Part shown: piece after piece, positions 5,844 through 18,072 of the stretch | Numbering within the stretch: position 1 is the stretch's first letter | Layout: every line of letters starts with the position of its first letter | Origin: Negativicoccus massiliensis | GTDB lineage: Bacteria; Bacillota; Negativicutes; Veillonellales; Negativicoccaceae | NCBI GenBank assembly: GCA_900155405.1 | Contig: LT700188.1 | Span: 806,001-870,000 of the forward strand | Reading direction: 5' to 3' | Length of the DNA stretch: 64,000 nt | Program-made: the position numbers and the translations under genes | Notes under the pieces: generated by a model | The model's database searches: none | Told to the model about the DNA's origin: nothing | The model's input: only the letters and a program-made list of their open reading frames with translations

Positions 5844-6146
5844 TTACGTATCCTTTCCCTCTAACCGCTCCAGCATCGTTTGGTAACCGTCCGCGCCGTA
5901 ACGCAACGCGCGTTTGACACGACTGATCGTTGCGGAGCTCGCCCCCGTAAGCGATTCGATATCTTCATATTTTTGACCGCTGTGCAGCAACTGCGCCACC
6001 TGCCAGCGCATGCTTAAGTCTCGCAGCTCGGAAACGGTGCACAAATCTTCCAAAAGCGCATACCCTTCCTCGCGCGTTTCAAGTGCCAGCAACGCATCCA
6101 GCAGGCTGTCCATTGCCGGGCTGACCAATCTCGGATTTACGCTCAT
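5844..6146 (-). CDS. YerC/YecD-type TrpR-like DNA-binding protein
   Basis: The 100-residue protein matches the YerC family of TrpR-fold regulators. A helical N-terminus (LLDALLALETREEG) is followed by a helix-turn-helix with the family signature LTGASSATISRVKRALRYG near residues 60-80. The ligand of this family is not established. The start at 6146 follows a GGAGGG site; a longer frame reaching 6308 was rejected because it would run through promoter-like and non-coding sequence. It is directly joined to the phosphohexomutase gene. A TATAAT (minus strand, 6169-6174) lies 23 bp upstream, without a clear -35 box. Confidence 0.85.
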   Translation of the reverse strand: MSVNPRLVSPAMDSLLDALLALETREEGYALLEDLCTVSELRDLSMRWQVAQLLHSGQKYEDIESLTGASSATISRVKRALRYGADGYQTMLERLEGKDT

Positions 6147-6265
6147 CGTCTTCCCTCCTATATTCTTTATTATAGCACATAGTAAAACAATCGCGGACGT
6201 ATCGCAGCGGCAACAGACACCGCGTGATATCCGTGATGCCCCGTCAGAACGCATCATGATGCACA

Positions 6266-6298
6266 TAAAAAGAGATCCTGTAATACAGGATCTCTTTT
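6266..6298. terminator. Rho-independent terminator
   Basis: A 12-bp perfect stem (AGAGATCCTGTA and its complement) with A and T tails, just after the stop of the B3/B4-domain gene. Confidence 0.8.
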
Positions 6299-6309
6299 GT
6301 CGCAGCAAG

Positions 6310-10578: not shown

Positions 10579-11418
10579 TTACGGATGATGCCGCAACGCC
10601 GCGGTCACCGCCGCGTCCAGCATGAGCGCGGTCGTTACCGAACCGATACCGCCCGGAACCGGTGTCGCCGCCTGCGCTTTCGCCAGTGCTTCCGGCGCGA
10701 CATCACCGACGGTTTTGCCGTCGACGCGATGGATGCCCACATCGACGACAACCGCATCCTCACTCACCATGTCCGACGTCACCATCATCGCTTTGCCGAC
10801 CGCCGCGACCAAAATATCTGCCGCGCGCGTGAAGTGCGGCAAGTTCTGCGTTTTGGAGTGGCAAATGGTCACCGTCGCGTTCGCCGCCAGCAATAATTGC
10901 GCAACGGGTTTACCGATGACATCGCTGCGACCGATCACCACCGCGTGTTTACCGGCGAGCGGAATGTCATAATGCCGCAGCGTGGCGAGCACCGACCGCG
11001 CGGTCGCCGGCACAAATGCGGTGCGGCCCGTCACAAGCCGGCCTACTTGTGTCGGCGTCAAACCGTCGATATCTTTGCCCGGCGCAATCGCTTCGACCAA
11101 CGAACTGCGATCCAGTCCCGGCGGCAACGGCATTAAAAGTAAAATGCCGTCAATCTGCGGATTCTGATTCAGCGTGTGAATCGTCGCCAAAGCATCCTCT
11201 TGCGTCAGATTTTCCTCGGGCTCGACCCGTTCGACATATAATCCTGCTTGCGTTGCTGACTTCGCTAAAAAGTCGCCGTACATCTGCGCCGCACGATCCG
11301 CGCTGAAACTCACAATGGCCAGCCCCGGAGTAACGCCCTTCGCCGCCAGCATGCGAATTTTTTTCGCCGTGGTTTCCTGCTGCGCGGCCGCTACCGGCGC
11401 CCCCTTAAGTTCTCGCAT
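10579..11418 (-). CDS. folD: FolD-family methylenetetrahydrofolate dehydrogenase/cyclohydrolase, catalytic residues altered
   Basis: The 279-residue protein has the FolD fold: PGKDIDGLTP, VVIGRSDVIGKP for NADP binding, and PVPGGIGSVTTA near the end. By eye against E. coli FolD, Tyr50 is kept (Y47), but the catalytic Lys54 aligns with Leu51 and Gln98 with Leu95. The usual PCTP motif reads PATA. In characterised FolD enzymes the Lys is essential for the cyclohydrolase step and less so for the dehydrogenase, so this copy may be a dehydrogenase only, or have another role. It is last in the operon, 9 bp after fhs, whose product makes 10-formyl-tetrahydrofolate. Confidence 0.85.
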   Translation of the reverse strand: MRELKGAPVAAAQQETTAKKIRMLAAKGVTPGLAIVSFSADRAAQMYGDFLAKSATQAGLYVERVEPEENLTQEDALATIHTLNQNPQIDGILLLMPLPPGLDRSSLVEAIAPGKDIDGLTPTQVGRLVTGRTAFVPATARSVLATLRHYDIPLAGKHAVVIGRSDVIGKPVAQLLLAANATVTICHSKTQNLPHFTRAADILVAAVGKAMMVTSDMVSEDAVVVDVGIHRVDGKTVGDVAPEALAKAQAATPVPGGIGSVTTALMLDAAVTAALRHHP

Positions 11419-11427
11419 GAATCCTCC

Positions 11428-13098
11428 TCAAAAAAGACCGACAATGTTTCCGTCCGCCGTCACGTCGATTTGTTCCGCGGCCGGCTTTTTCGGTAATCCC
11501 GGCATCGTCATGATGTTGCCGGTAAGAGCGACGATAAAGCCTGCGCCGGCGCTGATTTTAAGTTCGCGTACGTGTAGCGTAAAGCCGCTGGGGCGGCCCA
11601 GTTTGTTCGGATCATCGGAGAACGAATACTGCGTCTTGGCGATGCAGACCGGCAACGCCGCATACCCGCCCGCTTCAATATCGGCCAGCGTTTTTTGCGC
11701 CGCCGCTTCTAAAACAATATCGTCCGCGCCGTAAATTTCCCTCGCAATGGTACGGATTTTGTCGGGAATACTCAATTCGCTCGCATACAGCGGCTGAAAA
11801 TCAGCGGTGCCCTTGGCAATTTCCGCCAGCACGGCTTGCGCAAGTTCTTTGCCGCCTTCTCCGCCCTTGGCAAAAACATCGGACAACGCGACGGGTACGC
11901 CGCGTTCTTCGCAGTATGTCCGAATCGCCGCCATTTCTTCTGCCGTGTCGCTGGCGAACGCATTGATGGCAACGACTGCGGGAACATTATATTTGGCAAT
12001 ATTTTCTAAATGTTTGCCGAGGTTTTCCAGGCCTTTCTTTAGCGCGGCGACATCCGGTTCGGTGAGTTCGTTTTTCGCGCGTCCGCCGTGCATTTTGAGC
12101 GCGCGCACCGTCGCGACCAATACCGCCACTTCCGGTTTTAACTTGCCGTAGCGGCATTTAATATCAAAGAATTTTTCCGCGCCCAGATCCGCGCCGAAAC
12201 CGGCTTCCGTAACGACGTAGTCCGCCAGGTGCAACGCGGTTTTTGTGGCCACCAGCGAATTGCAACCGTGCGCGATATTCGCAAACGGACCGCCGTGCAC
12301 CAGCGCCGGCACATGTTCAATCGTCTGCACCAGGTTGGGCGAGATCGCGTCTTTCATTAATGCCGTCATCGCCCCCTGCGCATGCAGGTCGCCGGCCGTT
12401 ACCGCGTTACCGTCGTAATCGTAGGCGACGATAATGCGGCTGAACCGTTCTTTCATATCTTTGAGATCCTGCGCGAGACACAAAATCGCCATGACTTCGG
12501 ACGCGACGGTAATATCAAAGCCGTCTTCGCGCGGCACGCCGTTCACTTTGCCGCCCAGACCCACCACGATGTGGCGCAATGCCCGATCATTCATATCGAC
12601 CACGCGTTTCCACACGATCCGACGCGGATCAATGCGCAGCGCATTGCCCTGTTGCAGGTGGTTATCAAGCATGGCCGCCAATAAATTGTGCGCCGCGGTA
12701 ATGGCGTGCATGTCGCCGGTAAAATGCAAGTTGATATCTTCCATCGGCACCACTTGCGAATAACCGCCGCCGGCGGCGCCGCCTTTGATTCCCATGCACG
12801 GCCCGAGTGACGGTTCACGCAACGCCACCATCACTTTTTTACCGAGCTTGGCAAGACCCTGCGCCAAACCGACCGTAGTAGTCGACTTTCCTTCACCGGC
12901 AGGAGTCGGAGAAATCGCCGTAACCAAAATCAAATGTCCATTTTGGGCGCCGTCCAACTTGCGAATTAAATCGTAGCCGATCTTCGCCTTATAGCGTCCG
13001 TACGGTGCTAAATATTTTTCGTCAATACCTGCCGCCGCGGCAATTTCCGTAATCGGTTGCAGCTTCGCCGCCTGGGCGATTTCAATATCGGTTTGCAT
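11428..13098 (-). CDS. fhs: Formate-tetrahydrofolate ligase
   Basis: The 556-residue enzyme is full length. It shows the nucleotide-binding loop TPAGEGKST at 65-73 and the substrate region [18 protein letters not shown]. It joins formate to tetrahydrofolate using ATP, giving 10-formyl-tetrahydrofolate for purines and other one-carbon needs. It lies 13 bp after the PBP gene and 9 bp before folD, so it appears to be co-transcribed with both. Nothing unusual was seen in the active-site regions. Confidence 0.96.
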
Positions 13099-15100: not shown

Positions 15101-16541
15101 CCCTTTCCTGCCTCAGTTGGTATCGCTCAGCGGCGAGTCTCAACGCTTCCGGCTCATTGGCCAAATTTCCGTCCTGCACCCGTTGGCGCAAAACTTTCAA
15201 CAATGTTGCTGTGTCTTTTCCGTAACGTTGCGGCAATGATGGATCGTACCGCAGGTCTCGCGTATGCACCGGCATCGTGGTAAGCTCGGCACGCACCGCG
15301 CCGCCGAACGCGCGATGACCGTCGGTAGCGCTGAGCGGCCGACCGCAGCCGATCACATCCGCCGCGCACAGATCATTTAGTTCGTCCATCGCCTCGGTCA
15401 GCTCGCCCGTGGTGCGAAATGCTCCCGAGCGGGCCAATTGGCGCAGCCAACGCCGCACATTCGCGTCCGCCGTGTTGGCGTATTGATGATATTTCATATG
15501 ATTGGCGACTAAAAATTCAACACGCCTTACCATCGTCGCCGGATATTGCAAACGAGTCAGCGCCGTTTTGGTCATTTCAGCGCTGCGCACATCATGCCCG
15601 TAATCGGTAATATCGCCTTTATGAAAGCCGCGGATACCGGGCAAGCCTTTCGCCACGTCATGGAAAAGCGCCGCATAGCGCGCCACCAATGTAGCCGGAC
15701 TGTGCTCCACGACGACCAGCGTATGCAGCCACGCGTCGTAGGCGTGAAAACGCCCCTGCGGCGTTTCGGGTAAATGACTCAGCTCCGGCAAAATCGCAAA
15801 CGTTTGATCAATCCCCTGTTCGCGAACCCGACACGATTGCTCCGCCAATCCCGAGCGAACGAAAAGATCCAAACCGCGGCCGGCATACGGCGCGACCAGC
15901 AGCCGATCGAGTTCGGCGCGCACGCGCTCCAGCGAAAGTCCCGCGACCCGCGCAAACGCCTGAGGCATCGCCGCGCACAATTCACGCGTCGGGCGAAAGC
16001 CGAGCTGCGCGATAAAGCGGCAGGCGCGGAACAAGCGCAAGGCGTCTTCTCGAAAACGTTCTTCGGGAACACCGACGGTTTGCAAGCGTTTTTTCTTCAA
16101 ATCCTTGCGACCGTCATAAGGGTCAATCAATGTGCCGTCGGAACGAAACGCCATGGCGTTGACGGTAAAATCACGCCGCGCCAGGTCATCCGCCAAATGC
16201 TTGGCGTAGTACACTTTTTCCGGACGGTGACTGTCCGCTCCGTATTCTTCCCCGCGGAATGTAGCGACCTCATAGGTTACGCCCGCCCATTCGACCAGGG
16301 ACACGCCGAACGCGCGTCCGACAGTGCCGACCACTCGAAACGGCGCAGCGGCAAACACCTGCTCCACTTCGTCCGGAGTGGCGGCCGTCGTGATATCCCA
16401 GTCGTGCGGCGCGCGCCCGAGCAATGTATCGCGCACGCATCCGCCCACGGCGTAAGCCTCAAATCCTGCCTGCTCCAATGCCCGCAGTAATGCTCGAACC
16501 CTTTCGGGTAATGGGTAGCGACGGGCAAAAAACGGTATCAC
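15069..16541 (-). CDS. cca: CCA-adding tRNA nucleotidyltransferase with HD domain
   Basis: The 490-residue enzyme has the class II nucleotidyltransferase signature GGCVRDTLLGR and the DWD catalytic motif within APHDWDITT. Then come the RRDFTVNAMAF motif, a tRNA-binding middle region and a C-terminal HD domain (LFHDVAKG). It adds or repairs the CCA tail of tRNAs. The start was set at a GTG whose last bases overlap the sdaAA stop (GTGA), typical of translational coupling; an upstream GTG at 16565 would add eight residues. All tRNA genes in this window already encode CCA, so repair may be its main job here (inference). Confidence 0.9.
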   Translation of the reverse strand: MIPFFARRYPLPERVRALLRALEQAGFEAYAVGGCVRDTLLGRAPHDWDITTAATPDEVEQVFAAAPFRVVGTVGRAFGVSLVEWAGVTYEVATFRGEEYGADSHRPEKVYYAKHLADDLARRDFTVNAMAFRSDGTLIDPYDGRKDLKKKRLQTVGVPEERFREDALRLFRACRFIAQLGFRPTRELCAAMPQAFARVAGLSLERVRAELDRLLVAPYAGRGLDLFVRSGLAEQSCRVREQGIDQTFAILPELSHLPETPQGRFHAYDAWLHTLVVVEHSPATLVARYAALFHDVAKGLPGIRGFHKGDITDYGHDVRSAEMTKTALTRLQYPATMVRRVEFLVANHMKYHQYANTADANVRRWLRQLARSGAFRTTGELTEAMDELNDLCAADVIGCGRPLSATDGHRAFGGAVRAELTTMPVHTRDLRYDPSLPQRYGKDTATLLKVLRQRVQDGNLANEPEALRLAAERYQLRQERDAHDEGTSEE

Positions 16542-17398
16542 TGTTCGCGAATCTTGCGCGCCCACGCTTTGCCCGTAGGCGTTGTCGCAAGCCCCGCTTC
16601 GCTGCGTTCACGCAATGACTTGGGCATCATGTGACCGATCTCCGCCATCGCGCTGATCACTTCATCCGCAGGTATCGCACTTTTCACACCGGCCAACGCC
16701 AACTCAATCGCCACCAACGCGTGCACCGCATGAAACGCGTTGCGTTTGACGCACGGCACTTCGACCAGGCCGCCGACCGGATCGCAAACCAGCCCCAATA
16801 CATTTTTTAGTCCCAACGCAACTGCGTTATCCATTTGCCCGGTCGTGCCATTGCATAATTCAATACCGGCCGCGCCGGCCATGGCGATCGCCGTTCCGCA
16901 TTCCGCCTGACAACCGCCGACAGCGCCGGCAATCATCGCGTTTTCCGCAATGACATCACCGACGCCCGCGGCCGTAAATAACGCGCGTAAAATGTCATCA
17001 TCGCTGCTGCCTAAACGTTCCGCCAACGTCAACACGACCGCCGGCAAAATGCCGCATGAGCCCGCGGTCGGGCACGCCACAATGCGGCGCATTTTCGCAT
17101 TGGCTTCCGCAATGCCCATGCCGAGCGTCGCCGCGCGCCAGGCATAGCCGTTCAAAAAATGCGGGGCCGCATCACGCATGCGCAAGGCATCCCCACCTGT
17201 CAAACCACTCGGCGAACTGCCGCCGTCACTGATACCGGTTTGAGCCGACTCGCGAAACGCGGCCAACATATCCTGCATTTTGTGACGCACCGCCACCAAG
17301 GGTTGTTCATTAGCCGCCGCTTCCTGCGCCGCGACAAAATCGCCGACACGTTGATCGGCCGCTGTCGCCTGTTCCCATAATTCCCGTAATGAGCTCAT
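16538..17398 (-). CDS. sdaAA: L-serine dehydratase, iron-sulfur-dependent, alpha subunit
   Basis: The 286-residue subunit carries the conserved cysteine motifs CPTAGSCGILPAV, GGCQAECG and LVCDPVGGLVEVPC that hold the [4Fe-4S] cluster. With SdaAB it converts L-serine to pyruvate and ammonia. AAGGAG precedes the ATG, and it follows sdaAB by 14 bp. The split two-subunit form is typical of Firmicutes. In an anaerobe this route can supply pyruvate from amino acids. Confidence 0.95.
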   Translation of the reverse strand: MSSLRELWEQATAADQRVGDFVAAQEAAANEQPLVAVRHKMQDMLAAFRESAQTGISDGGSSPSGLTGGDALRMRDAAPHFLNGYAWRAATLGMGIAEANAKMRRIVACPTAGSCGILPAVVLTLAERLGSSDDDILRALFTAAGVGDVIAENAMIAGAVGGCQAECGTAIAMAGAAGIELCNGTTGQMDNAVALGLKNVLGLVCDPVGGLVEVPCVKRNAFHAVHALVAIELALAGVKSAIPADEVISAMAEIGHMMPKSLRERSEAGLATTPTGKAWARKIREQ

Positions 17399-17412
17399 GT
17401 CGACTCCTTTCC

Positions 17413-18072
17413 TTACACCGGCGGAAACGTCCGCACAACTTCAATCGCCGGATGCGCCGCAATCTCCGCCAGCGTCGCGTTAGCGACCGGCGTATCCGTT
17501 TCAATAAACATCATCGCCAGGCGTTTGCGTTCCTGTCGAAACAGGCGCATCGCCGAAATATTAATATCCTGCGCCGCTAAAATTTGGGAAACAAAAGCCA
17601 CGATGCCCGGTCGATCGTTATGCCGCGTCAAAAGCGTGTGACTGGAACCGTCCAAGTCGACCGAGTAGCCGTCAAACTCACGCATGCGAATCCGGCCGCC
17701 GCCGGTGGACACGCCCATCAATTCGCGCACCTTCCCGCTGCCGCCGGTCAAGCGAAAGCGCACCGTATTCGGGTGTTCCGTTTCCGCCGCAGAGGCCGCA
17801 ATCGTCACCTGCAGTCCCAGCTCGGGGGCCATCGTCAACGCATCGCGCAAGCGCGGGTCATCCGGCGCCCAACCCAAGAGTCCGGCCACACAGGCGCGGT
17901 CCGTCCCGTGTCCCCGATACGTTTGCGCAAACGAACCGTAGAAAGTAATCTCCGCCTTGATCGGCGATTCGCCCAATAAGTATCGAGCCAAGCGTCCTAA
18001 ACGCGCCGCGCCCGCCGTATGCGAGCTCGACGGCCCAATCATCACCGGACCGATGATGTCAAAAACTCCCAC
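17413..18072 (-). CDS. sdaAB: L-serine dehydratase, iron-sulfur-dependent, beta subunit
   Basis: The 219-residue subunit starts with the typical GVFDIIGPVMIGPSSSHTAG and ends in an ACT domain (RPGIVAFVSQILAAQDINIS) that may sense serine. It pairs with SdaAA. The start is GTG with GGAGG seven bases ahead. It lies 18 bp after the membrane-anchored gene upstream, which suggests shared transcription. Confidence 0.94.
   Translation of the reverse strand: MGVFDIIGPVMIGPSSSHTAGAARLGRLARYLLGESPIKAEITFYGSFAQTYRGHGTDRACVAGLLGWAPDDPRLRDALTMAPELGLQVTIAASAAETEHPNTVRFRLTGGSGKVRELMGVSTGGGRIRMREFDGYSVDLDGSSHTLLTRHNDRPGIVAFVSQILAAQDINISAMRLFRQERKRLAMMFIETDTPVANATLAEIAAHPAIEVVRTFPPV

Follow-up and report, generated by a model that had tools for sequence, protein, structure and literature searches.

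Clostridium perfringens reportedly has a FolD that is devoid of cyclohydrolase activity. FolD, FchA and Fhs are separate proteins in that organism, according to Aluri et al. (2016, doi 10.1099/mic.0.000209) as relayed in PMC7219735, and the genome described here has the same three; here, fchA is unlinked to folD and both FolD residues in question are hydrophobic. In the acetogens Clostridium formicoaceticum and Acetobacterium woodii, the two steps are carried out by two proteins, both purified, according to work cited in PMC7793690, as is predicted here; the acetogen enzymes serve the Wood-Ljungdahl pathway, whereas the present host has a 1.36 Mb genome and is, judging from its relatives, a fermenter. 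Yeast MTD1 (PDB 1edz/1ee9), according to work cited in PMC11064299, is a FolD-fold dehydrogenase without cyclohydrolase activity, like the FolD predicted here, but the two proteins are very distant (E-value of 1e-6, versus 1e-56 for E. coli FolD).

Structural papers assign the active-site Lys of FolD the role of general acid/base and the Gln that of positioning this Lys (PMC3338484; PMC3368264). In E. coli FolD, K54N renders cyclohydrolase activity undetectable and leaves ~19% of the dehydrogenase activity, while Q98H leaves ~1% and ~8%, respectively (PMC5688156); spontaneous ring opening is possible and is thought to keep the slow-growing K54N strains alive (PMC5688156). A disagreeing study found that silkworm MTHFD K53A and Q97A, altered at the same positions, retain cyclohydrolase activity (PMC6443876). 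The E. coli variants are changed at the same two positions as the FolD described here, with cyclohydrolase lost and dehydrogenase partly kept, but each is a single change selected in the laboratory, in an enzyme that is bifunctional and has no FchA partner. Monofunctional FolD with a separate FchA is already known from C. perfringens and the acetogens, and the Veillonella-like order would add a member; we found no statement in the open-access literature of an order-wide loss of Lys54 and Gln98 or of a rule relating these residues to FchA.

The folD gene and its active-site residues

The window, the whole 64,000-nucleotide stretch of DNA analysed here, covers positions 806001–870000 of a genome that consists of one contig of 1,360,589 bases and is 99.96% complete. 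The features under discussion are as follows.

10579 to 11418, minus strand: folD, predicted monofunctional 5,10-methylene-tetrahydrofolate (THF) dehydrogenase, 279 aa (PF00763 and PF02882, alignment, dN/dS)
11278 to 11280, minus strand: codon of Tyr47 (E. coli Tyr50), kept (invariant in 53/53 genomes of the order)
11266 to 11268, minus strand: codon of Leu51, in the place of the E. coli catalytic Lys54 (alignment)
11134 to 11136, minus strand: codon of Leu95, in the place of E. coli Gln98 (alignment)
11065 to 11067, minus strand: codon of Asp118 (E. coli Asp121, pterin-binding), kept (invariant in 53/53 genomes of the order)
10999 to 11010, minus strand: PATA, residues 137–140, in the place of E. 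coli PCTP (alignment)
11428 to 13098, minus strand: fhs, formate–tetrahydrofolate ligase (NCBIfam NF010030, 1.7e-283, above cut-off; PF01268, 5e-276)

The folD open reading frame is intact and complete, and both FolD Pfam domains are matched end to end in its product (PF00763, 2.8e-26; PF02882, 7.7e-56). Residues were numbered through a MAFFT alignment with E. coli FolD (NP_415062.1, K-12 record), in which E. coli Y50, K54, Q98 and D121 correspond to Tyr47, Leu51, Leu95 and Asp118. Specifically, the YxxxK stretch aligns without gaps (YVASK in E. coli, YGDFL in the window) and the second motif aligns unambiguously (GILVQLPLP in E. coli, GILLLMPLP in the window), so that Leu51 and Leu95 sit where a preliminary description of this DNA, aligned by eye, had placed them. 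Its further readings, a retained Tyr50 and DxDG region and PATA for PCTP, agree with the alignment, in which Thr142 is kept and Cys141 and Pro143 are both Ala. The alignment could have overturned that description, and it places no Lys at the catalytic position; misalignment or a shifted Lys is ruled out, since no gap interrupts the YxxxK stretch and the sole nearby Lys (window Lys53) pairs with E. coli Lys56. The window FolD thus has neither of the two residues, Lys54 and Gln98, that mark a bifunctional FolD. It also scores at best 265.9 bits against the NCBIfam bifunctional-FolD families, below the cut-off of 411, which is weak evidence because these cut-offs are tuned to narrow groups and are missed even by an intact FolD from Rhodobacterales.

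The FolD of a sister species (G024) is 97% identical to the window protein and has identical active-site residues. The two genes differ by 29 silent and 7 replacement codon changes (dN 0.011, dS 0.147), and the resulting dN/dS of ~0.08 indicates that folD is under purifying selection and is a working gene. Chance, sequencing error and a pseudogene are ruled out as the source of the altered residues by their presence in the sister species, by the dN/dS and by the lack of Lys54 and Gln98 throughout the order.

Folate genes in the complete genome

The content of the genome was assessed by protein family searches. As the preliminary description noted, folD lies next to fhs; fhs is 9 bp upstream, and the two genes probably share one transcript. 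The gene order around them is sdaAB-sdaAA-cca-PBP-fhs-folD-dnaX-ybaB-recR, with ybaB assigned by inspection. The two-subunit L-serine dehydratase encoded by sdaAA and sdaAB (16538–18072, minus strand) lies a few genes upstream of fhs-folD; serine also usually provides the one-carbon units carried by folate. A TrpR-like DNA-binding protein (PF01371) is encoded at 5844–6308 on the minus strand, with recR and a B3/4-domain protein upstream of it.

The preliminary description expected another cyclohydrolase elsewhere and proposed a genome search for a second folD or fchA. The complete genome holds no second FolD, leaving the window copy as the only one, but it does hold one stand-alone FchA-type gene at genome positions 1,277,187–1,277,702 (G000:C1), about 460 kb from folD, which is the predicted second cyclohydrolase. 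The encoded protein (201 aa, beginning MNQPTQMTLAEF) matches PF04961 (FTCD_C) at about 5.8e-51 to 9e-51, and its sole NCBIfam match is FchA (NF045657; 141.9 bits, under the cut-off of 275). Its best match among solved structures is the methenyl-THF cyclohydrolase 7vg4 (1e-30), followed by the formimino-THF cyclodeaminase (FTCD) structure 1tt9 (8e-18), and it has in common with its relatives the PGGG loop and the Asp of the SD/TD motif. None of its neighbours, which encode CBS-domain, DJ-1/PfpI and OmpH-like proteins, has a link to folate. The genome has no glutamate formiminotransferase domain (FTCD_N, PF07837) and no histidine ammonia-lyase (PF00221), so that a cyclodeaminase of histidine breakdown was rejected as an unlikely identity for this protein.

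Among the enzymes that use 10-formyl-THF, the PurN and Fmt formyltransferases were found in the genome and PurU was not. Pyruvate formate-lyase, as a formate source for Fhs, was not found in the genome either, and one might guess from this that Fhs runs towards formate and ATP.

Residue state and FchA in the order and the phylum

Veillonellaceae and Megasphaera supply the nearest named records. Each of the 53 genomes of this Veillonella-like order contains exactly one FolD and one PF04961 protein. Lys54 is absent from all 53 FolDs (Met in 45, Leu in 7, Val in 1), as is Gln98 (Leu in 34, Met in 18, Phe in 1), while Tyr50, Pro100, Asp121, Gly122 and Thr142 are invariant; Cys141 is replaced by Ala in only 4/53. 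The fhs-folD adjacency is found in two families. In the other families, folD stays beside the penicillin-binding-protein gene, and fhs adjoins fchA in all 10 loci that were looked at. Across the order, folD, fchA and fhs are shuffled in position but always all present.

The phylum sample comprises 116 genomes with a readable FolD, a FolD being counted as intact if it has Y-K-Q-D at positions 50/54/98/121. All 45 genomes without an intact FolD encode a PF04961 protein; of the 71 with an intact FolD, 48 lack PF04961 and 23 have both. The altered states include Y-K-E-D (23 genomes), Y-A-F-D, Y-L-L-D, Y-Q-Q-D and others. Furthermore, a PF04961 gene is located no more than 1.6 kb from folD in 29/45 altered-FolD genomes, versus 1/23 intact-FolD genomes with PF04961, and this one exception (G126) also has an altered FolD, whose gene is the one that PF04961 adjoins. 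Where the gene adjoins folD, that folD is thus an altered one and never an intact one, as a dedicated cyclohydrolase partner predicts. Counted by family, 29 have an altered FolD with FTCD_C and none has an altered FolD without it.

A Fisher test of altered FolD against PF04961 gives p = 3e-15, a value that we reject as strong statistical proof, since only ~4 changes between intact and altered states appear on the tree. In the FolD tree (139 rows, columns 54 and 98 left out), the states need only 4 changes, a count that is rough given the many long or weak branches; a test that pairs independent branches has 2 to 4 such pairs to work with and is without power. The association between FolD state and FchA therefore rests on few independent events. 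Separately from the Veillonella-like clade, G130 and G161 within the Y-K-E-D clade also appear to have lost Lys54.

A large Bacillota clade (including G055, G056, G066, G090 and G121) keeps Lys54, with Gln98 replaced by Glu and PCTP by Pro-Ala-Thr-Pro, and its folD is nearly always beside fchA. The clade represents a second and distinct route to a FolD that is likely monofunctional.

Outside the sample, PF04961 is present in 20 of 30 named genomes, among them a Chloroflexi MAG whose FolD lacks Lys54, and the rule mostly holds. Neither PF04961 nor a second FolD was found in two MAGs of unestablished completeness, G190 (L042, K54R) and G193 (L052, K54L), whose FolDs keep Gln98; these two may break the rule or may simply be incompletely assembled. 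In three Christensenella-like MAGs, a K54R FolD is accompanied by a second, intact one.

Proposed function of the window FolD and its alternatives

Taken together, the residues and the separate FchA-type gene strongly support the suggestion in the preliminary description of a dehydrogenase without cyclohydrolase activity; the window FolD is very probably a monofunctional methylene-THF dehydrogenase that works with FchA and Fhs. In the proposed scheme, Lys54 with Gln98 would handle the proton and water chemistry of ring opening, and a FolD without Lys54 would stop at 5,10-methenyl-THF. FchA would hydrolyse this intermediate to 10-formyl-THF, which Fhs would interconvert with formate, THF and ATP and which PurN and Fmt would consume. 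The points that count against a monofunctional FolD are the silkworm mutants, the FchA score below cut-off, the lack of linkage between fchA and folD, the small number of clades, and G190 and G193.

It is unlikely that the window FolD is still bifunctional, with other residues or an ordered water replacing Lys54 and Gln98 and with FchA as an extra. The silkworm variants do keep cyclohydrolase activity in vitro (PMC6443876), and a computational study of MTHFD2 reached no firm conclusion on what the Lys does in catalysis (PMC9173628), but either single change abolishes or nearly abolishes the E. coli activity (PMC5688156), the two residues are lost together and always to hydrophobic residues in 53/53 genomes of the order, and FchA is found in every altered-FolD genome of the phylum sample. 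Somewhat less probable again is a dehydrogenase-only FolD followed by spontaneous ring opening, with the PF04961 protein acting as a formimino-THF cyclodeaminase or in another role. Non-enzymatic hydrolysis does occur, being credited with the survival of the slow-growing E. coli K54N strains (PMC5688156), and 1tt9 is the second-best solved match; against this, the FchA match is the better of the two (1e-30 versus 8e-18), the genome lacks both the formiminotransferase domain and histidine ammonia-lyase, and relatives carry fchA-type genes next to folD or fhs.

That FolD has decayed and retains neither activity is scarcely credible: a full-length protein with dN/dS of ~0.08, the sole FolD of its genome, whose Tyr50, Asp121 and nucleotide-binding domain are kept throughout the order, outweighs the loss of two active-site residues and the observation that the E. 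coli single mutants lose much of their dehydrogenase activity too.

Extending the monofunctional assignment beyond the window, we tentatively suggest, as a possibility with the balance somewhat against it, that FolD positions 54 and 98 form a readable code across Bacillota, such that any genome whose sole FolD has lost Lys54 or Gln98 would leave the second step to FchA. The Veillonella-like order would have gone furthest, its two hydrophobic residues possibly re-tuning the dehydrogenase site and preventing carolacton, a FolD inhibitor, from binding, as in E. coli K54N. If so, hundreds of genes annotated as bifunctional FolD would be monofunctional. Genes like the window folD are called bifunctional by automatic annotation, and the two residues, read together with whether FchA is present, give a simple and testable rule for annotating them. 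If the window FolD is indeed monofunctional, the cyclohydrolase step should be assigned to FchA in metabolic models of Veillonella, Megasphaera, Dialister and their kin; FchA would then be essential for making purines and formyl-Met-tRNA from serine carbon, and inhibitors of FolD that rely on Lys54 should fail to bind.

A different departure from the intact state was observed in a tandem arrangement, where an intact Y-K-Q-D FolD is accompanied by a paralogue that reads Y-Q-Q-E (Lys54 to Gln, Asp121 to Glu) and lacks the catalytic Lys as well as the pterin-binding Asp. The tandem recurs in Rhodobacterales and several Bacillota (L010, 2090–3876, and similarly in L011–L081; G078, G106, G118, G145 and G153), and in L010 it adjoins fhs.
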